DNA from: Chitinophagaceae bacterium
GTDB taxonomy: Bacteria; Bacteroidota; Bacteroidia; Chitinophagales; Chitinophagaceae
Direction: 5' to 3'
Length of the DNA: 35,822 bases
Assembly (NCBI GenBank): GCA_947452925.1
Contig: CANGFK010000006.1
Location: 1-35,822 of the forward strand
Below are positions 5,315 through 29,071 of the stretch, one piece after another (positions within the stretch are counted from its first letter, which is position 1; every line of letters begins with the position of its first letter). The translations under genes were made by a program, and so were the position numbers. The notes beneath the pieces were generated by a model that saw only the letters and a program-made list of their open reading frames with translations, was not told the DNA's origin and made no database searches.

Positions 5315-5375
5315 TTATGAGTTATCAGTTATACGTAATAAGTTTTAGGTAATAAGTTATTAGTTTTCATGTAGC

Positions 5376-5410
5376 AAAGTCCCAAATGGTTTATACTGTC
5401 TGGGACTTTT
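5376..5410. terminator. Terminator hairpin AAAGTCCCA ... TGGGACTTT after rny
   Basis: caaagtcccaaatggtttatactgtctgggactttttatt: 9-bp stem plus T run. Confidence 0.85.
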
Positions 5411-6246
5411 TATTTGCGGTAAGCCGTCGTCGGATCTTCCATTATATAAAATGAATTGAAACGTACTGCTTCATCCTTTAGATAAGAAACATTCTTCAGG
5501 CTACGATAAATGCCCCATTTGGGTCTGATAAAAGAATTCCCTTCCCTGAATGTTTTTATATCAGTGGTATTGTACGATAAAAGTGTTTTACCATTACTTA
5601 CCTTTTTTATAACAATAGCGTAACTACCTTTTGCTCCAACCGTAATTACTTCTGTTGCCTCTACCCAAGTACCTAGAAAAGAGCCAAGAGAAACTTCCTG
5701 TAAAATAGAGGTTGGCGCAGTTTTGTCTGCTCGATAGATTAGTTGCAATGTATTGAACCCATTTTTGCCATATCGGGGCGAAAGCGTAAAGAGGGGTTCA
5801 CCTTCATCGCCACCCACACATTTTATCTGGTGAATATGGGTAAAGCTTGGCGAAGGTTGAAAGTCGGGCGACAATCGAAATTTCCACTTATAGGTAATGG
5901 TTTCGCCAGGAGTGCCTTTGAGACTATCTGGTGAAGGCTCATAGGTCTTTATCTCTACCCGTTGTCTATCAAAATTCTCACAGCGGTCATTGTCTATGGC
6001 AGCATGAACCATAAACTCAAATACCCATTGTTTGAGGGTTTCGTCCCACACTTCTCTTATGTGCCTACCAAATTGGGGGTGGTTGGTGCATTGATCAGGG
6101 GTTTCTTCAGCGTGAGCTCCCGGTGCCAATGCACTATCTATTAATTCATAAGTATGTCCTTTACCATTGGCTTCTAGGAGTGTTTGGGCGGAGGAAAATG
6201 CAGGATAAACCAGTATCGAAGTAAGTAAAAGGGCAAGTAATTTCAT
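5410..6246 (-). CDS. Secreted protein, probable concanavalin A-like/polysaccharide lyase-type fold
   Basis: Signal peptide MKLLALLLTSILVYPAFSSAQ; jelly-roll-like pattern RQRVEIKTYEPSPDSLKGTPGETITYKWKFRLSPDF...THIHQIKCVGGDEGEPLFTLSPR...RPKWGIYRSL. Confidence 0.5.
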   Translation of the reverse strand: MKLLALLLTSILVYPAFSSAQTLLEANGKGHTYELIDSALAPGAHAEETPDQCTNHPQFGRHIREVWDETLKQWVFEFMVHAAIDNDRCENFDRQRVEIKTYEPSPDSLKGTPGETITYKWKFRLSPDFQPSPSFTHIHQIKCVGGDEGEPLFTLSPRYGKNGFNTLQLIYRADKTAPTSILQEVSLGSFLGTWVEATEVITVGAKGSYAIVIKKVSNGKTLLSYNTTDIKTFREGNSFIRPKWGIYRSLKNVSYLKDEAVRFNSFYIMEDPTTAYRK

Positions 6247-6327
6247 TTTATAATGTTGTCATCAAATATAGATTATTTCAACATTATCCTCTCAAGAAGT
6301 ATAATTCATGATGTATTGCCAGCCAAG

Positions 6328-6652
6328 CCAATTGCATAGCTTGAGTAGGTTAATTGATTGGCTCGCAAAGCCAATCAATCATGTTGAGTAAGCCAATTGA
6401 TTATGTGAGTTAGGTTAATTGATTGGCTCGCCAAGCCAATCGATCATGTTGGGTAAGCCAATTGATTATGTGAGTTAGGTTAATCGATTAGCTCGCCAAG
6501 CCAATCGATCATGTTGAATAAGCCAATTGATCATATTGAGCAAGACCATTGATTGTGTCAAGTAGGTTAATTGATTCGCTCTTCAAGCCAATTGATTATG
6601 TTGGGTAAGACCATTGATTGTGTCAGGTAGGTTAATTGATTAACCGCTCAAG
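6328..6652 (+). repeat. Array 1: fifteen 21/22-bp units, 65-bp super-period (22+21+22), core AATTGATT/AATCGATC
   Basis: Units read by eye: CCAATTGCATAGCTTGAGTAGG, TTAATTGATTGGCTCGCAAAG, CCAATCAATCATGTTGAGTAAG, CCAATTGATTATGTGAGTTAGG, TTAATTGATTGGCTCGCCAAG ... ACCATTGATTGTGTCAGGTAGG, TTAATTGATTAACCGCTCAAG; 10x22 + 5x21 = 325 bp. Confidence 0.95.
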
Positions 6653-6791
6653 CTGTTCAAAGAACTTGTCGAACTATCCTTTTATCAGAATTAGCTATAC
6701 TAAACTTAAAGTATTTAATCCTACCTCCCCCCTTTCTCTATTACTAAGTATCCTATAATTTACTAGAATAAAACGCTGTTATGATGCAAAA

Positions 6792-7073
6792 ATGTTTAGA
6801 CTCCTTCTGATAGTAGCAATTGTAGTAACTAGAATAAGTAGTATCCGCGCTCAGGAAAAAAGTAATCTCTCCGTAAATGGACTCAAGGAAGTAGTAGAAG
6901 TGTTTCGGGATGAATGGGGCATCAACCATATCTACGCCAAAAACCAGCACGACCTATTCTTTGCCCAGGGATATTTGGCAGCTAAGGACAGGCTGTTTCA
7001 GTTCGAAATATGGCGCCGTCAGGCAACGGGTACCGTCGCTGAACTATTGGGTGAAAATTTAAAGGCTTATTAG
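6792..7073 (+). pseudogene. Truncated penicillin acylase (Ntn-hydrolase) family N-terminal fragment
   Basis: GLKEVVEVFRDEWGINHIYAKNQHDLFFAQGYLAAKDRLFQFEIWRRQATGTVAELLGENLKAY then stop at 93 aa. Family members are several hundred aa, and no continuation is seen before the next gene. Confidence 0.8.
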
Positions 7074-7145
7074 ACAATCTCCATTATCATGAATCTATTA
7101 TCACAACCTTTAGGAAATAAATCAAACGGAAATATATAAATAAAC

Positions 7146-8961: not shown

Positions 8962-9690
8962 ATGGCAAATAACTACTTTCAATTCAAGCAATTTTTGATA
9001 CACCAGCGGTATGCTGCTATGAAAGTAACCACCGATGCCTGTTTATTTGGCGCATGGGCAGCAAGCAAAATTGAGCATGGAGAATGGGGAAGCATTCATA
9101 AAACAGTGCTAGATATAGGAACTGGAACAGGATTATTGACCTTGATGCTTGCACAAAAGAATCCATCTGCTTTGATTGATGCAGTAGAAATAGAGGTAGA
9201 AGCAGCAAAAGAAGCAGCAGATAATTTGGGCAAGTCGGTTTGGCAAGATAGGACTAAAGTGATTAATGAGGACATTCTTAGTTATAAATCAAATGAACAG
9301 TATGATTTTATTATTACCAATCCTCCCTTTTTTGATAATGACTTGAAAAGCGACTCTAATCAACGAAACCTGGCTATGCATAGTGAGGCATTGAGTTTAG
9401 ATGAATTGTTAGGTTCCATAAAAAGATTACTAAAGGCAGATGGTCAGTTTGCCATCTTGCTTCCTACGCATCGTTTTATTGAGTTTGAGAAAAAGGCATT
9501 AGCGGAAGAATTTCATCTAAAAGAAAAGGTATTGGTAAAACAAACGCCGAAGCACACTGGATTCCGAAGTATGCTTTTATTTGGTTTTGAGAAAGTAGTT
9601 ACGCTTGAAAAGCAGTTAATTATAAAAGAAAACGAAGCTTATACAGTGGATTTTATTGCCTTATTAAAAGACTACTATCTATACCTATAA
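8962..9690 (+). CDS. tRNA1(Val) (adenine(37)-N6)-methyltransferase
   Basis: FQFKQFLIHQRYAAMKVTTDACLFGAWA...LDIGTGTGLLTLMLAQK...FIITNPPFFDNDLKSDSNQRNLAMHSEALSLDELL; NPPF motif, TrmN6/YfiC family. Confidence 0.92.
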   Translation: MANNYFQFKQFLIHQRYAAMKVTTDACLFGAWAASKIEHGEWGSIHKTVLDIGTGTGLLTLMLAQKNPSALIDAVEIEVEAAKEAADNLGKSVWQDRTKVINEDILSYKSNEQYDFIITNPPFFDNDLKSDSNQRNLAMHSEALSLDELLGSIKRLLKADGQFAILLPTHRFIEFEKKALAEEFHLKEKVLVKQTPKHTGFRSMLLFGFEKVVTLEKQLIIKENEAYTVDFIALLKDYYLYL

Positions 9691-17789: not shown

Positions 17790-18542
17790 TTACTTAATGT
17801 CATATTGAGAATGGAAACATTTAGCCAGTTGTTCTGCTACCCTCAAAGCATCTTTCCCGGGCGTCATCAGTTGATTTGTTTGGGCTAAATTTAGTAGGCG
17901 CAAGAACTTTCCTATATCAAGATAGGCAACAGTATTTATGTCCTTGGAGGCAGACAATTGTATCCGCTGCAAAGTATTATAAGGATAATGATAGCCACCA
18001 ATATGAAACTCAAATGCATGATGTCTTGTATTACATAACGGACTCGTTCCCTCCAGTTTAAAGTTGATATACCCACTTTGCCAGGTCCAATACATGCCTC
18101 GCATCGGGTCCAAATCGCCTCCTTGCACGCCCATCACATTGGTGGCACTATCTATTCCTAAATTAAAAGAAAGAATATCGAAGTCTTTTTGGTTAGAGAA
18201 AGCAAGTGGTAAGGAGCACGTTTTTTCATTAGCAGCATCAACTAGGTGGTAACTGTTGGGCTCTTTCCAAACTAAAATCCTATTGTTATACAACTCAATT
18301 CCCGAGATATAAAACTTCAAACTGCGAATTTCTATGCTGTCTTTGTCATTAGAAAAGAAGGAAGAATCTTGTAGTTGAATAGGCTCTGTAGATATCTGTG
18401 GTTTGTTATAAACAGAAACAAACCTCAATTGCAGCGTAGTGTCTTTTTGAGCAGAAGCAAGTAAACTGCTGATTAATAATAATAAAAAAGAAACTATTCG
18501 CATTGCCGGATGATTTTTTTGGTGTGTACGCAAAGTACTCAC
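17790..18542 (-). CDS. MbnP-like family protein
   Basis: EIRSLKFYISGIELYN...YHLVDAANEKT...FNLGIDSATNVMGVQGGDLDPMRGMYWTWQSGYINFKLEGTSPLCNTRHHAFEFHIGGYHYPYNTLQRIQL. Confidence 0.85.
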   Translation of the reverse strand: MSTLRTHQKNHPAMRIVSFLLLLISSLLASAQKDTTLQLRFVSVYNKPQISTEPIQLQDSSFFSNDKDSIEIRSLKFYISGIELYNNRILVWKEPNSYHLVDAANEKTCSLPLAFSNQKDFDILSFNLGIDSATNVMGVQGGDLDPMRGMYWTWQSGYINFKLEGTSPLCNTRHHAFEFHIGGYHYPYNTLQRIQLSASKDINTVAYLDIGKFLRLLNLAQTNQLMTPGKDALRVAEQLAKCFHSQYDIK

Positions 18543-19271: not shown

Positions 19272-19415
19272 GATAGATACTTTTTGGGTAAGACATGCAA
19301 ATATTGAAATTTGTTTCCTTGTTTATTGTTAAAAAAGGTATTTAGGTGATTTTCCTATTCAAATGGAGACTGCACTAGCCAGTTTTAAGGCACTGAATCA
19401 GGCGCATGGCTGTAA

Positions 19416-19625
19416 AAACCACGTGAATGACGACATGACTCACCTGAATAACTGAAAGATTCACCTGAATGGCTCCATGATTCACTTGAATGAGGTGAGG
19501 ATTCACCTGAGTCCCGTCTTGATTCAAGTAAGTGACGACAGGATTCACCCGAATAACTGAAAGATTCACTTGGGTGACACCATGATTCGCATGAATCATG
19601 ACGGGACTCAAGTGAATAAATGGCG
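19416..19625. repeat. Array 3: ten consecutive 21-bp units, core GATTCACYTGAAT
   Basis: GACTCACCTGAATAACTGAAA / GATTCACCTGAATGGCTCCAT / GATTCACTTGAATGAGGTGAG / GATTCACCTGAGTCCCGTCTT / GATTCAAGTAAGTGACGACAG / GATTCACCCGAATAACTGAAA / GATTCACTTGGGTGACACCAT / GATTCGCATGAATCATGACGG / GACTCAAGTGAATAAATGGCG, preceded by AAACCACGTGAATGACGACAT; exact 21-bp spacing. Confidence 0.95.
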
Positions 19626-19676
19626 GTATCGAGCAAGGGTATGTCCAATTTTATCAGTATATAAACCAATATCTTT

Positions 19677-19844
19677 AGAAGCTGTTTGAGTTAATTGTTT
19701 AGAATTACTTATTGGTGTTTATTTGATTGGAACAAGGCAAATTTTGCAACCATAGTCCAACGCCTAAGGTGAAAAATTTAACGCAGTTGCAGTCAATATT
19801 AAATCCTGTAAAGAATATCAAATAATTAACTCAAACAGTTTCTT
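19677..19844. repeat. MITE-like element: ~20-bp imperfect inverted repeats, about 168 bp
   Basis: AGAAGCTGTTTGAGTTAATT (19677-19696) and AATTAACTCAAACAGTTTCTT (19824-19844); no ORF between. Confidence 0.6.
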
Positions 19845-20033: not shown

Positions 20034-20115
20034 GTTATAGGTTATAAGATATGAGTTATAAGTGAAACGATAATTTGCTTCTAAACTCATAACTCATAAT
20101 TCATAACTCATAACT
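20034..20115. repeat. 7-nt-periodic tracts in inverted arrangement in front of dnaE
   Basis: gttatag gttataa gatatga gttataa ... actcata actcata attcata actcata act. Confidence 0.85.
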
Positions 20116-20122
20116 AAAAAAC

Positions 20123-23100
20123 ATGTGTCAATTTTCTCATCTTCACGTTCATACGCAGTACTCCTTGTTGGATGGTGCGGCCAATATTGGTGACCTCTAC
20201 AAGAAGGCTGCTAAGTATAATATGCCTGCCATTGCCATCACCGATCATGGTAATATGTTTGGTGCTTTTGAGTTTGTGGCGCAGGCTTGGAAGAACACTA
20301 AAGTAGTTGGTAAGGACGCAAATGGTAAGGATATTCTGGAGCCGACCGTGAAACCTATTGTTGGTTGCGAGTTTTATGTGGTGGAAGATAGACATGCAAA
20401 AATTTTTACTAAGGATAAGAAAGACCATCGCTTTCATCAGGTGTTATTGGCAAAGAATAAGCAGGGCTATCAGAACCTGATAAAGCTTACATCACTAGGT
20501 TTTATAGAGGGGATGTACAGTAAATACCCACGTATAGATAAGGAACTGATTGAAAAGTATCATGAGGGATTGATTGCAACCACCTGTTGTATTGGAGCGT
20601 ATGTGCCACAGACAATATTGAAGAAAGGGGAGGAAGAAGCTGAAAAAGAGTTTAAATGGTGGTTGGATTTGTTTGGGGAGGACTATTATATAGAGGTACA
20701 GCGGCACCAGATACCTGAGCAGGAAATCATCAACCAGACGCTTTTAAAGTTTGCAAAGAAGCACAATGTGCCGGTAATTGCAACCAATGATAGTCACTAC
20801 ACCAATCAGGACGATTATAATGCCCACGATATATTATTGTGTATCAACACGGGAGAGAAGCAGTCTACTCCGGGTTTCGATGACTTCTCTAATGATGATA
20901 TCATGATTAAGAACCGTCGGTTTAAATTCCCTAATGATCAGTTCTACTTCAAGTCGCCAGAGGAGATGCAGAAGCTCTTTCATGATATCCCGGAGAGTAT
21001 AGATAACACCAATCAGATAGTAGACAAGGTAGAGGTATTGAACCTGAAAAAGGATATTCTGCTACCTAACTTCCCTATTCCTCCCTCCTTTAAGGTACAT
21101 GCTGATGATACCCTAAACCAGTGGGAATACCTGAAACACCTCACGTATGAAGGAGCCAAGGAACGCTATATAGACATCAGCGAGGAAGCGCAGACAAGGA
21201 TAGATTTTGAGCTGAATACCATACGTATCATGGGTTTTGCTGGTTACTTTTTGATTGTAAGTGACTTCATAAAAGCTGGTCGGGATATGGGCGTATTCAT
21301 TGGACCGGGTCGTGGTTCTGCCGCGGGTAGTGTGGTGGCGTATTGTACTGGAATAACCAATATCGACCCCATTAAATACAACCTGCTATTTGAACGTTTC
21401 TTGAATCCTGACCGTAAGTCAATGCCCGATATTGATACCGACTTTGATGATGAAGGCAGGCAAAAAGTAATGGATTACGTGGTGCAGAAGTATGGCAAGT
21501 CGCAGGTGGCTCAGATTATTACTTATGGTACGATGGCTGCCAAAAGTAGTATTGCTGATGTGGCGCGTGTGATGGATTTGCCGTTGGCAGAGAGTCGCGC
21601 CTTGACTAAAATGGTTCCCGACAAACCGGGGACTGATTTAGGAAGGGTATTGCAAGCACCATTAACTAAGAAAGATGGAGAAAAAAGTTTGGAAGAGAAG
21701 GAAGGTCTGCAACCAGAGGATCTGGATAATATTAGACAACTAAGAGAGATTTATAATGGAACTGACATTCGTTCGCAGGTATTGCATGAGGCGGAGAGAT
21801 TGGAGGGAAGTGTGCGTAATACGGGTATTCATGCGGCTGGAATTATCATTGCCCCAAGGGATTTAACTGAACTGATTCCTGTGGCGACATCCAAAGAATC
21901 GGAGTTGTGGCTGACTCAGATAGAAGGTAATTCCATTGAAGATGCAGGAGTTATCAAGATGGACTTTCTAGGTTTGAAGACTTTATCTATCCTAAAGACT
22001 GCCTTAGAATTGATTAAGCAGAACCACGGAGATGACATTGTGATTGATGATATTCCGCTGGATGACGAGCTAACTTTTCAGTTGTATCAGAAGGGAGAGA
22101 CCAATGCTACTTTCCAGTTTGAAAGTGTGGGAATGCAGAAGTACCTACGTGAGTTGAAGCCCGATAAGTTTGCGGATCTGATTGCGATGAATGCCCTTTA
22201 TCGTCCCGGACCTATTGCCTATATCCCTAAGTTTATTCTGCGTAAACATGGTAAGGAAGAAATTACTTATGACGTGGATGATATGGCAGAATACTTGGAG
22301 GAAACCTATGGTATTACAGTATATCAGGAACAGGTGATGTTGCTTTCGCAGAAGTTGGCAGGTTTCTCTAAAGGAGATGCGGATGTACTGCGTAAAGCGA
22401 TGGGTAAGAAGCAACTTTCGGTGTTGGATAAGATGAAGAAACAGTTTATGGATGGGGCAACTGCAAAGGGACACCCTAATGATAAACTTGAAAAGATTTG
22501 GACCGACTGGGAGGCATTTGCACAATATGCCTTCAATAAATCGCACAGTACCTGTTATGCTTTTGTGGCTTATCAGACTGGGTATCTAAAAGCTCATTAT
22601 CCGAGCGAGTATATGGCGGCGGTGCTTAATCATGCCGGAAGTATTGATAAGATTACGTTTTTTATGGAAGAATGTAAACGCATGGGCATTAAAGTATTGG
22701 GCCCTGACGTAAATGAATCTTTGAAAGGCTTTGCCGTAAATAGTAAAGGACAGATACGTTTTGGATTAGGCGGATTGAAAGGAGCAGGCGATAATGCTGT
22801 AGAAAACGTAATTACGGAGCGTAAAAAGAATGGTCCTTACAAAGATATATTCGATTTTAGTGAGCGGATAGTGAGTAAGAATGTAAATAAGAAGTCCTTA
22901 GAAACCTTTGCACAGAGTGGGGCATTTGATTGCTTTCCTGACTTGCATCGTGCACAATATTTCTACACGGCTGAAGGAGATAAGGCATCAGGGTTGGAGA
23001 AGATAATCAACTACGGGCAGACGAAGCTTTCTACAGAAGCAAATACGGGAAATAGTTTATTTGGTGAATTGCCATCAGCAATGGATGTCCCTCAGCCAAA

Positions 23101-23797
23101 GATTGCCCCTTGTCCAGAGTGGACCTTGACGGAGCAACTAGACCATGAAAAGGATGTTACTGGGATGTTTATGAGTGGTCATCCACTAGATCATTATAGG
23201 TTTGAGTTGAAGCATTACGGTATTATGATACTTAGTGACTTTAATGAGATTAAAGAGAGTATCACGTTGTCTCAAGCCAATGTAGGCAAGAACTTTAAGA
23301 TTGCAGGGTTGGTAACACAGGCACAACACCGCAAGACAAAGACCAACAGAGACTTCGGTATTCTTGCTTTAGAAGATTATAGCGGGAAGACCGAGCTCGC
23401 TCTTTTTGGAGAAGATTATGTACGCTTTAAACATTACTTAGAAATAGGGAAGAGTCTTTTTATAACCGGCATCTTCAAAGCACCTTGGAAAGAAGGGGCT
23501 GCTTATGAGTTTAAAGTTTCTAGTATGAGTTTACTGGAAACAGTAAAGCCTAATCTTACAAAAAATGTAGAGATAAGCGTTACGCCTACTACTATCAATA
23601 AGGAGTTTGTAGATTTCCTTACCAGGAATATGAAACAGAATCCGGGTAAGTCTGTACTGAAACTAAATGTTTATGACCCCGAACAGAACCTGAAAGTAAG
23701 TCTTCATACAAGCGATAAAGGCTTTGTAATGAACGATGATATGGCCGAGTTCCTGATGAATAATCTGGATATAGATGTGAGTGTTGCTGTTGCATAG
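20123..23797 (+). CDS. dnaE: DNA polymerase III subunit alpha
   Basis: PHP domain FSHLHVHTQYSLLDGAANIGDL; palm GPGRGSAAGSVVAYCTGITNIDPI...PDIDTDFDDEGR; NALYRPGPIAYIPKF; FNKSHSTCYAFVAYQTGYLKAHYPSEYMAA; C-terminal OB fold. Confidence 0.97.
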   Translation: MCQFSHLHVHTQYSLLDGAANIGDLYKKAAKYNMPAIAITDHGNMFGAFEFVAQAWKNTKVVGKDANGKDILEPTVKPIVGCEFYVVEDRHAKIFTKDKKDHRFHQVLLAKNKQGYQNLIKLTSLGFIEGMYSKYPRIDKELIEKYHEGLIATTCCIGAYVPQTILKKGEEEAEKEFKWWLDLFGEDYYIEVQRHQIPEQEIINQTLLKFAKKHNVPVIATNDSHYTNQDDYNAHDILLCINTGEKQSTPGFDDFSNDDIMIKNRRFKFPNDQFYFKSPEEMQKLFHDIPESIDNTNQIVDKVEVLNLKKDILLPNFPIPPSFKVHADDTLNQWEYLKHLTYEGAKERYIDISEEAQTRIDFELNTIRIMGFAGYFLIVSDFIKAGRDMGVFIGPGRGSAAGSVVAYCTGITNIDPIKYNLLFERFLNPDRKSMPDIDTDFDDEGRQKVMDYVVQKYGKSQVAQIITYGTMAAKSSIADVARVMDLPLAESRALTKMVPDKPGTDLGRVLQAPLTKKDGEKSLEEKEGLQPEDLDNIRQLREIYNGTDIRSQVLHEAERLEGSVRNTGIHAAGIIIAPRDLTELIPVATSKESELWLTQIEGNSIEDAGVIKMDFLGLKTLSILKTALELIKQNHGDDIVIDDIPLDDELTFQLYQKGETNATFQFESVGMQKYLRELKPDKFADLIAMNALYRPGPIAYIPKFILRKHGKEEITYDVDDMAEYLEETYGITVYQEQVMLLSQKLAGFSKGDADVLRKAMGKKQLSVLDKMKKQFMDGATAKGHPNDKLEKIWTDWEAFAQYAFNKSHSTCYAFVAYQTGYLKAHYPSEYMAAVLNHAGSIDKITFFMEECKRMGIKVLGPDVNESLKGFAVNSKGQIRFGLGGLKGAGDNAVENVITERKKNGPYKDIFDFSERIVSKNVNKKSLETFAQSGAFDCFPDLHRAQYFYTAEGDKASGLEKIINYGQTKLSTEANTGNSLFGELPSAMDVPQPKIAPCPEWTLTEQLDHEKDVTGMFMSGHPLDHYRFELKHYGIMILSDFNEIKESITLSQANVGKNFKIAGLVTQAQHRKTKTNRDFGILALEDYSGKTELALFGEDYVRFKHYLEIGKSLFITGIFKAPWKEGAAYEFKVSSMSLLETVKPNLTKNVEISVTPTTINKEFVDFLTRNMKQNPGKSVLKLNVYDPEQNLKVSLHTSDKGFVMNDDMAEFLMNNLDIDVSVAVA

Positions 23798-23799
23798 TT

Positions 23800-23876
23800 A
23801 GTGATTAGTTATTAGTGTTTAGTGATTAGTTAAAGCAAGGTCTGTACTAATAACTAAACACTAATAACTAATCACT
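23800..23876. terminator. Long 24-bp-arm hairpin made of 7-nt repeats between convergent dnaE and phosphatase genes
   Basis: AGTGATTAGTTATTAGTGTTTAGT (23800-23823) is the perfect reverse complement of ACTAAACACTAATAACTAATCACT (23853-23876); overlaps the stop of the minus-strand gene. Confidence 0.85.
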
Positions 23877-25536
23877 GCTTCAACGCTTCTTCCACCACCT
23901 TCCCTACGCATCCGCTAGGCATTTGTACGTGTAGTAAGGCAGTAATAGTTGCCGCAATATCTGTCATATAGGTCTCCCGGTTGGTATGCCCTTGCTTAAT
24001 TCCCCATCCATAAAACACACAAGGAATATGCGCATCATAGGGCGCCCACAAACCGTGAGTAGTACCTGATTTACCATTGCCATACGCTTCAATAAATCCG
24101 GGTTTTAATACAATTTGTATGTCGCCACTACGAGTAGGGTAGTAGCCATTAGTCAACATGTCTTTTTCCTTTGAATTCAAAGCGGTAATGGCAATATCTT
24201 TCAAAGAAAACACACGTGATACTGCTTCATTCTGTTCTGTGTACTTTATGATTGTATTGATTATTGCCTTTTCATCTGCATGGGCAGAATCAATCGCAGC
24301 ATGATTCAGGTGAATCTGGTAGTTCATCACATTAGTCACTAATTTATCGAGTCCGAATTGCTCTTTTAGTTTCGTATTGAGGCTTTTCACTAATTCATGT
24401 TCACTAAACAAACCACCCGGCAATTTATTCTCTTGCATAAAGCCCGGAACATGTGCCACACCATGGTCGGCAGAAAGGAAAAGGGTATACTGACCTTTGC
24501 CCACTTTCTCATCCAGATAGGTTATAAAAGCAGCTAAGTCTTTATCTAATCTAAGATAGGTATCTTCTGTCTCTAATGAATTAGGACCAAAGCTGTGACC
24601 CACATAATCGGTACTAGACAAGCTTACGCAAAGCATATCTGTTTCGCTACCTTTACCTAGTTGTTCGTTATCCAAAGCAGCTTCTGCAACTTCCAATGTC
24701 ATCGAATTTCCAAAAGGAGTTGCTGCAATTGGCTGGTAGTTTTTGCCTTCGAACTTGGAAAGTTTATACGGAAACTTTGTTTGTTCTGTTCCAAAAGGTT
24801 TGTTTTCGTAGTCCTTCTCATCTGCAGTACTTTGGGTGTAAGTATCAATTGGATAGAGTGTATTCCAACCTTGTTCATAGAATTTTTCAACTGCTTTCTT
24901 AGCATTATAATCACTTACCCATTTTGGCAAACTAGCCATATAATAGGTACTCGTAATCCAGTTTCCAGTGGTCACATCATACCAATAAGCTGCATTGGCA
25001 CTATGACCTGCGGGTAGTATCGAACCCCTGTCTTTTAAGGCCACCCCAATCACTTTACTTCTGAAGTTAGTCGCTAGTCTTATCTCATCGCCGATGGTGG
25101 TCACCAGCATATTCTTCGGACTTTGTTTGCCGCTATTGCCCTCATTTCCAACAGTAGTAACGCTGTTGTCTTCACTGCAATAGGTTTTCTTCTGTGCTAG
25201 CTTATCATACCAGTCGTTGCCTACAATGCCGTGTATGGCAGGTACCGAACCTGTGTAGATGCACGTATGTCCCGCTGCCGTAACAGTAGGAGTATAAGGA
25301 ATAAAAGTATTGTCGCAACTGAAGCCTTCGCCCAACAAACGCTTAAAACCATTGCTCCCATATCGGTTATAATAACGATAAAGGAAGTCCCAACGCATCT
25401 GGTCCACAACTATTCCCACTACTAGTTTAGGACGTTTTATAGTTTCATTTACTTTAGCTTCCACAACTGGTTTAGTCTGTGCAGTGGCTGTATACAATAG
25501 TATAAAACCAATCAATATACTCAACACTCTTTTCAT
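23872..25536 (-). CDS. Alkaline phosphatase, PafA-like (type I phosphodiesterase/nucleotide pyrophosphatase superfamily)
   Basis: RPKLVVGIVVDQMRWDFLYRYYNRYGSNGFKRLL...YTPTVTAAGHTCIYTGSVPAIHGIVGNDWYD...LFLSADHGVAHVPGF...GTTHGLWAPYDAHIPCVFYG. Probable start 25536 (MKRVLSIL). Confidence 0.93.
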   Translation of the reverse strand: MKRVLSILIGFILLYTATAQTKPVVEAKVNETIKRPKLVVGIVVDQMRWDFLYRYYNRYGSNGFKRLLGEGFSCDNTFIPYTPTVTAAGHTCIYTGSVPAIHGIVGNDWYDKLAQKKTYCSEDNSVTTVGNEGNSGKQSPKNMLVTTIGDEIRLATNFRSKVIGVALKDRGSILPAGHSANAAYWYDVTTGNWITSTYYMASLPKWVSDYNAKKAVEKFYEQGWNTLYPIDTYTQSTADEKDYENKPFGTEQTKFPYKLSKFEGKNYQPIAATPFGNSMTLEVAEAALDNEQLGKGSETDMLCVSLSSTDYVGHSFGPNSLETEDTYLRLDKDLAAFITYLDEKVGKGQYTLFLSADHGVAHVPGFMQENKLPGGLFSEHELVKSLNTKLKEQFGLDKLVTNVMNYQIHLNHAAIDSAHADEKAIINTIIKYTEQNEAVSRVFSLKDIAITALNSKEKDMLTNGYYPTRSGDIQIVLKPGFIEAYGNGKSGTTHGLWAPYDAHIPCVFYGWGIKQGHTNRETYMTDIAATITALLHVQMPSGCVGKVVEEALKQ

Positions 25537-25638
25537 TATTGCTTGTTTGACGCAAATGTAATATTTACTGCCACTGATTGACATTAAGTTATAATCAACA
25601 AAAAGGAATCCTTAACAACCCTAATCATATAGTCTGTT

Positions 25639-25857
25639 AAGCTATACAATTAACCTACTTGACATCATCAATTGGCTTGAAGAGCGAATCAATTAACCTA
25701 CCTGACATAATCAATAGTCTTACTCAGCATGATCAATTGGCTTTATAAGTCAATCAATTAACCTACCTGTCACAATCAATGGTCTTACCCAACATGATCA
25801 ATTGGCATGAAGAGCGAATCAATTAACCTACTTGACATAATCAATGGTCTTACTCAG
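25639..25857 (-). repeat. Array 2: inverted copy of the array 1 family, about 9-10 units of 21/22 bp
   Basis: Reverse complement reads ACCATTGATTATGTCAAGTAGG / TTAATTGATTCGCTCTTCATG / CCAATTGATCATGTTGGGTAAG / ACCATTGATTGTGACAGGTAGG / TTAATTGATTGACTTATAAAG / CCAATTGATCATGCTGAGTAAG / ACTATTGATTATGTCAGGTAGG / TTAATTGATTCGCTCTTCAAG / CCAATTGATGATGTCAAGTAGG. Confidence 0.95.
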
Positions 25858-25935
25858 AGCGAGGCACGAAGCAACCTTATTAACGTGAAAAATGTTTTTT
25901 TTCGACTGCATAAGGCTGCTTCGTGCCTCGCTCTG
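25855..25935. repeat. REPIN-like long hairpin (two inverted REP-like units)
   Basis: CAGAGCGAGGCACGAAGCAaCCTTAT ... ATAAGGcTGCTTCGTGCCTCGCTCTG: 19 perfect bp, one mismatch, then 6 more bp. Confidence 0.85.
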
Positions 25936-26104
25936 ACGGGGATGGGGATGTGAATAGTGGGATATGTCGGAAAAATAAATTTTATTTATACAATTCAGTT
26001 TAGAATACTACACTAATTATGACTATCCCCTTTCTCCTTATCACTTTCACCTCATTCCTTATAACTATTCTTCATAAAATCACTTCCTCCAATACATTTG
26101 CAAC

Positions 26105-27430: not shown

Positions 27431-27450
27431 TGGAAATTACGTACAAAGAA

Positions 27451-27614
27451 TTTACCACATAGGCACAGTAGGCGCATAGTATTTATTATTAGTTTACATA
27501 AGGACATACAAAAAGATACAATTTTATACTAGTCAAGGCTATGTGCCCTAAAAGTGAAACGTTTCTTGCCTTATTTTTAATCTTTCTATGTGCCTATTGT
27601 GTCTATGTGGTAAA
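27451..27614 (+). repeat. MITE-like element copy 1, TIR TTTACCACATAGGCAC
   Basis: TTTACCACATAGGCACAGTAGGCGCATAG ... CTATGTGCCTATTGTGTCTATGTGGTAAA; 164 bp, no ORF. Confidence 0.85.
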
Positions 27615-28896: not shown

Positions 28897-29060
28897 TTTC
28901 ACCACATAGGCACAATAGGCATATAGAAAAGGAAAAAGTAGGTAAGAAGCGTTGTACTTTAAGGACACATAGACGAGAATATGACAAAAAGGGGCTTTTT
29001 TATGTGTTCTTATGTAAACTGATACTAAAAACTATGTGCCTACTATGCCTATGTGGTAAA
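28897..29060 (-). repeat. MITE-like element copy 2, inverted relative to copy 1
   Basis: Reverse complement TTTACCACATAGGCATAGTAGGCACATAG...CTATATGCCTATTGTGCCTATGTGGTGAAA; same 164-bp length and conserved blocks as copy 1. Confidence 0.85.
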
Positions 29061-29071
29061 CTTATAACTGA

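Follow-up and report, generated by a model that had tools for sequence, protein, structure and literature searches.

Bacterial tandem repeats are usually seen as by-products of slippage, with assorted unit lengths. A different kind of repeat is found in phased operator or centromere arrays, such as plasmid iterons and F sopC, in which tandem dyad sites are set at helically regular spacing; each such system has a single protein and is limited to one locus, or a handful, per replicon. The minisatellites and VNTRs of bacteria (MIRU-type, MLVA) are intergenic, head-to-tail repeats whose copy number varies among related genomes, and the known sets comprise many unit lengths. REP, BIME and REPIN elements, with their RAYT transposases, are palindromic, intergenic and dispersed, and represent one or a few sequences. 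The nearest large-scale intergenic set that we found described in or near the phylum consists of heptamer repeats, e.g. TAACTGA, present in Beggiatoaceae, Cyanobacteria and some Bacteroidetes (PMC4679880). These have one sequence, a unit of 7 bp, and often a position just upstream of start codons (PMC4679880).

The 21-bp arrays described here are minisatellites by definition, sharing the intergenic position, head-to-tail arrangement and variable copy number of VNTRs. Unlike VNTR sets, however, unrelated sequences share one unit length of 21 bp within a single genus; dyad cores are frequent among them, and small indels are lacking. Like the heptamer repeats they are abundant, intergenic and of fixed unit length, but they have many sequences, low identity at lag 7 and no preference for start codons. 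They are intergenic and dispersed as REPs are, and a REP-like doublet abuts one of them, yet REPs are not tandem, unrelated dyads at 21 bp. Any likeness to iterons and sopC would lie in tandem dyads at regular spacing; here, in contrast, there are more than 100 loci (by extrapolation), differing sequences and a putative protein. No description of a 21-bp array class was found in the open-access literature, an absence that is not proof, and the class is apparently undescribed.

The window, i.e. the whole stretch of DNA analysed, is the 35,822-nucleotide contig C6 of a MAG, a Chitinophagaceae genome from a lake (3.37 Mb in 416 contigs). This genome is called G000, its sister species G006 and G010, and G017 is of another genus.

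Arrays 1 and 2 and their family

Two arrays of the CAATTGAT family lie in the window:

6325-6645, plus strand: array 1, about 14 units of 21/22 bp; the orthologous array of G010 (C147:1046-1336) stands between the same two genes.
25639-25857, minus strand: array 2, about nine units of 21/22 bp with a higher-order period of 65 bp, identified by TRF, alignment to array 1 and a search of its own genome.

The units are laid out as 21 + 22 + 22 bp. Each starts with a core, e.g. CCAATTGATT, and continues into a linker drawn from a small set (GGCTCGCCAAG, ATGTTGGGTAAG, ATGTCAGGTAGG and others). TRF reports array 2 at 25663-25857 (65 bp x 3.0, 83% matches, 0% indels, with related rows), so that it consists, as minisatellites do, of head-to-tail units longer than about 9 bp; array 1 appears at 6342-6642 as overlapping rows of 65, 87 and 152 bp. 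A CRISPR array was considered and rejected, because the units stand head to tail at 21/22 bp and the linkers recur among units and loci.

The reverse complement of 25639-25857 aligns locally to 6321-6650 with a score of 205, far above 1000 dinucleotide-shuffled pairs (mean 19.5, sd 2.7, maximum 33). The same-strand alignment of the two arrays scores just 26; thus, the inverted orientation of array 2 is real. A preliminary description had taken array 2 for an inverted relative of the 65-bp array 1, and the alignment, together with the TRF period of 65 in both, confirms this and their common origin. The near-identical stretch quoted there, GTAAGACCATTGATTGTG(T/A)CAGGTAGGTTAATTGATT, is present as given; the longest exact stretch common to both arrays is 35 bp (GTAGGTTAATTGATTCGCTCTTCAAGCCAATTGAT). 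The separation of about 19 kb with dnaE inside was also correct (about 19.0 kb; dnaE, 20123-23797). In addition, a unit containing ATAGCTT had been noticed at one end of each array as a possible boundary mark. This unit is indeed terminal in both, but in unit orientation it is found at the 5' end of array 1 (~6333) and at the 3' end of array 2 (~25641-25651), and the array on contig C27 has it at both ends. Consequently, it is a general feature of array edges and not a shared boundary.

The family was sought in 150 relatives, including 12 congeners. It is present at five loci in the window's genome (two arrays on C6, and others on C168, C27 and C39) and at six in the sister species (four in G006, two in G010); since array 2 also has units in common with both array 1 and the G010 ortholog of array 1, the dispersal and common origin proposed earlier are supported. 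Strong matches were confined to these two of the 12 congeners, with weak traces in two more, and none was found in other genera among the 150 relatives. Phage and plasmid collections gave no match to array 1, and viral contigs no exact match to the array pattern. When the distance from core to core is measured in the 11 family arrays, it is 21 or 22 bp in 139 of 147 cases; in another four it is 43/44 bp, which corresponds to two units with an altered core.

Copy number varies in the manner of VNTRs, array 1 and its G010 ortholog differing by whole-unit gaps (22, 22). Three loci of G006 carry a GATTAGGT variant, and their units are 94-96% alike, whereas C28 of G006 and its ortholog C27 in the window's genome are 87% alike; thus, sequence is exchanged between loci of the same genome, or one locus gives rise to another. 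The comparison shows that the arrays grow and shrink in steps of whole 21/22-bp units and become alike among the loci of one genome.

Origin of the array pair

The history of the pair can be followed through these features:

6792-7073, plus strand: penicillin amidase remnant, the first ~90 codons, where G010 has an intact gene of ~800 codons.
7054-7118: synteny breakpoint, between the amidase remnant and the HtrA 3' flank.
23872-25584, minus strand: type I phosphodiesterase gene; in unit orientation it comes immediately after array 2, on the downstream side.
25609-26029: synteny breakpoint interval holding array 2 (blastn of the sister loci); the conserved phosphodiesterase/dnaE block ends on its left and the conserved bioA block starts on its right.

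A single contig of G010 contains, in this order, the counterpart of gene 5410-6246, the array, the intact penicillin amidase gene, the phosphodiesterase gene and dnaE. Window 5337-7053 is colinear with the first part of this order, and window 25608 to 19967, reversed, with the last part. Thus, array 1 retains its old neighbours, as both of its flanks (gene 5410-6246 and the start of the amidase) are kept in G010. In the window the truncated amidase is followed next by HtrA, and the remainder of the amidase was not found in the window's MAG. The phosphodiesterase gene has array 2 immediately upstream of it. The G010 array is also upstream of this gene and is oriented alike with respect to it, but has the amidase in between. 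Among the 11 family arrays, GATTGACTTATAAAG is found solely in array 2 and the G010 array, and GATTCGCTCTTCA solely in arrays 1 and 2.

Most likely, arrays 1 and 2 both descend from one ancestral array, parted by a rearrangement in which the greater part of the amidase was lost as well, because their units and orientation are shared, the order agrees with G010, and only a remnant of the amidase is left. The ancestral array would have stood, as in G010, between gene 5410-6246 and the penicillin amidase and phosphodiesterase genes. Inversion or movement of the phosphodiesterase-dnaE block relative to gene 5410-6246, with the loss of most of the amidase, would then have left one copy of the array on either side of the rearranged segment, as the shared units and orientation suggest.

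According to the preliminary description, homologous exchange between the inverted pair could invert the 19-kb dnaE interval (6.3-25.9 kb). Inverted homologous copies do exist, the phosphodiesterase-dnaE block runs the other way with respect to gene 5410-6246 in comparison with G010, and array 2 does lie at a breakpoint. However, a reciprocal inversion between the two arrays was rejected on account of the unbroken flanks of array 1 in G010, and the breaks are located at 7054-7118, at ~19.96 kb (a further synteny break) and at 25.61-26.03 kb rather than at both arrays. Furthermore, the dnaE block and the HtrA-to-MbnP block (MbnP, 17790-18542) are on separate contigs in both G006 and G010, so the order in the window is no simple flip of theirs, and uninterrupted identity between the arrays extends for just 35 bp. 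A homologous switch is extremely improbable on this evidence, and a traceable history of duplication and rearrangement takes its place. Contig C39 of the window's genome (L154, ~9085-9560) carries an incomplete second copy of the beginning of gene 5410-6246 with three array units; it is 90.5% identical to G010 and 84.5% identical to the window's own copy, and it is broken inside a unit. Given this break and the position of array 2 in a breakpoint interval, the arrays may take part in rearrangements or promote breakage, and support for the earlier idea extends no further than this.

A further element lies beside array 2:

25855-25944: REP-like doublet, two inverted GCGAGGCACGAAGCA elements that form one strong hairpin (DNA folding z -9.2), abutting array 2.

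That this doublet carried array 2 to its present site by REP/RAYT mobility is very improbable. The genome does have three Y1_Tnp-like stretches and 16 matches (at most one mismatch) to the 15-bp motif, often as inverted pairs, and the C168/C218 arrays have a similar hairpin element beside them; yet 16 matches are few, arrays 1 and C27 have no such neighbour, and the array units contain no REP motif, which near array 2 occurs only at 25859-25931, outside the units. REP-driven spread of the arrays in general was rejected, because the REP-like neighbour is present at some arrays only. The hairpins at window 25855-25944 and at L166 4803-5298 have motifs of the GAGGCACGA(A/G) type, and L166 has a 169-bp tandem array that contains a REP-like hairpin.

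The 21-bp intergenic class and its readings

TRF found 65 noncoding arrays in 461 kb of the window's genome, surveyed as stretches sampled by region, and 53 in 398 kb of G006; besides heptamers, the periods in both are mostly 21, 42, 63, 84 and 105. In G017, 400 kb yielded seven noncoding arrays, none of them with a period of 21, 42, 63, 84 or 105. Intergenic autocorrelation peaks at lags 21, 42, 63, 84, 105 and 126 in G000, G006, G005 and G003, with z of 6.8 to 11.6 at lag 21 in these four species. At one fixed threshold, 65 arrays were obtained at lag 21, two at lag 20 and four at lag 22, and the other lags from 12 to 30 gave none or one, except for 14 and 28, which are heptamers. Arrays with a lag-7 identity of at least 0.45 (heptamers) were excluded from the class, and most 21-bp arrays have a low lag-7 identity and are not built of a 7-bp unit. 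The genus has 71 unique 21-bp arrays, compared with one in ~730 kb of 12 other genera, the outgroup samples being small per genus except for G017. These surveys show a period of 21 bp and, in the samples, restriction to the genus. The density is about 5 per 100 kb (6.0 and 4.8 in the two best-sampled species), and extrapolation gives ~100-200 such intergenic arrays per genome in the genus. Their sequences are mostly unrelated, with a few recurring at several loci. The window has a third member:

19399-19547: 21-bp array of unrelated sequence, with the dyad-symmetric core GATTCACsTGAATg (permutation p 0.003).

Gene context was assigned for 48 arrays, 31 of them in tandem gaps, 11 in divergent and 6 in convergent ones; this equals the intergenic background, and a promoter-array reading was rejected on this ground. 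When orthologous intergenic pairs with an array are compared, 10 of 54 have one on both sides and 44 on one side only. Unrelated arrays recur at orthologous gaps to a weak degree (31% vs 18%, uncorrected for gap length).

Spacing within the arrays is conserved. Alignment of two orthologous array pairs gave 43 small gaps to 74 mismatches in the flanks, compared with 0 non-unit gaps to 93 mismatches in the arrays (Fisher 2e-13). This value is only approximate: the C168/C218 array alignment has four short gaps that were read as 21-for-22 unit swaps, the left edge of the array 1 alignment has gaps that were attributed to its boundary, and the flank alignments may be over-split. Tandem repeats with a unit of 21 make up 6 of 81 in coding DNA and 94 of 230 in noncoding DNA (p 3e-9). 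The lack of small indels and of a coding preference for 21 points to selection on spacing, or at least to the lack of a ruler that acts everywhere, although selection inside genes could hide one.

Many of the units are symmetric. The consensus has significant dyad symmetry (p<=0.05 relative to column-permuted versions) in 30 of 71 arrays (Fisher combined 2e-22), e.g. GAAACAATTGTTT, TATTAACGTTAAT, GGTGTTANCACC and ACTCACsTGAGT. In the CAATTGAT family, where the mean spacing is 21.7, p is 0.19 for array 2, 0.016 for array 1 and 0.006-0.19 for the sister arrays. Conserved columns are contiguous beyond chance (Fisher 5e-8), and the contrast in conservation between core and linker is modest (0.165 vs 0.133 in permuted columns). 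No intrinsic AT phasing of 10-11 bp was found within the arrays. Folding of the class has a mean z of -3.5 relative to shuffles and -2.0 relative to column-permuted arrays, and the latter is what would be expected of symmetric sites.

A length of 21 bp is two turns of B-DNA. Each array would present a row of roughly dyad-symmetric putative sites on one face of the helix, and a dimeric DNA-binding protein could cover the intergenic gap cooperatively. Selection would hold the spacing and let the letters of the linkers change, while whole units are gained and lost. We favour this reading of the class as helically phased binding-site rows with spacing under selection, joined to the descent of the pair from one ancestral array, tentatively, as its probability falls just short of even. 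It is consistent with the period, the genus restriction, the 21/22-bp spacing of the family, the indel-free arrays, the coding repeats that show no preference for 21, the dyads and the folding beyond that of permuted columns. Against it, the arrays have no preference for promoters, more than half lack a significant dyad, the core-linker difference is modest, most arrays turn over between species, and a mean spacing of 21.7 in the family of arrays 1 and 2 drifts off a 10.5-bp helix over 14 units. A broader form, in which unrelated dyad arrays are held at two helical turns by selection as genome-wide phased nucleoprotein scaffolds, with spacing and not sequence conserved, is rather unlikely.

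The main rival holds that the arrays are neutral minisatellites without function, shaped by a mutational ruler, in which slippage or unequal exchange favours steps of 21 bp. A looped-out strand of two turns is perhaps the easiest to form, and exchange among units would keep their lengths uniform. The high turnover between species, the background-like placement and the homogenisation within and between loci fit such a ruler, as do young, near-perfect noncoding duplications, five of which have a unit of 21; elsewhere, heptamer repeats have been ascribed to polymerase slippage (PMC4679880). This rival is possible but doubtful, because coding repeats lack a preference for 21 bp even though this length is seven whole codons, non-unit indels are absent from arrays with 10-19% substitutions, and dyad-symmetric cores would be unexpected. 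It is also conceivable that the arrays act as RNA, in which case they would be transcribed into series of small hairpins and so regulate the adjacent mRNA. Array 1 folds strongly as RNA (z -3.8 for the plus strand, -8.2 for the minus strand), and the class folds better than either shuffles or column-permuted arrays. However, array 2 shows no folding (z ~0.3) although it belongs to that family, so the hairpin is not a conserved property of the family and was rejected as a conserved RNA element; moreover, the arrays have no preferred orientation relative to genes, the window has no Rfam match, and symmetric DNA sites would yield the same folding signal. Thus, a role as RNA is unlikely. With one unit length, no small indels and a location only outside genes, the class points either to a fixed 21-bp mutational ruler or to a DNA-organising function that is read from spacing, as in the phased rows favoured here.

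Other repeats of the locus

Heptamer arrays are present just before and after dnaE (window 20084-20115, 23798-23830 and 23846-23876). In G006 and G010, too, 7/14-bp arrays are found upstream of dnaE, within 50-90 bp, and their heptamer sequences differ. Beside the synteny break to the left of dnaE lies a dispersed repeat, a 169-bp stretch (window 19675-19843) that is 89% identical to C168:4002-4170.

Upstream of bioA, four species have tandem arrays of unrelated sequence with periods of 65, 21, 82 and 82 bp (window 25660-26100, L137 10236-10335, L139 9830-10055 and L150 4160-4375). The G006 contig ends within its array upstream of bioA, and the G010 contig ends ~315 bp upstream of this gene. 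Inverted copies of a ~170-bp repeat stand on either side of anmK (window 27449-27614 and 28897-29065); these repeats also flank anmK in G010, and one copy is found on C168.
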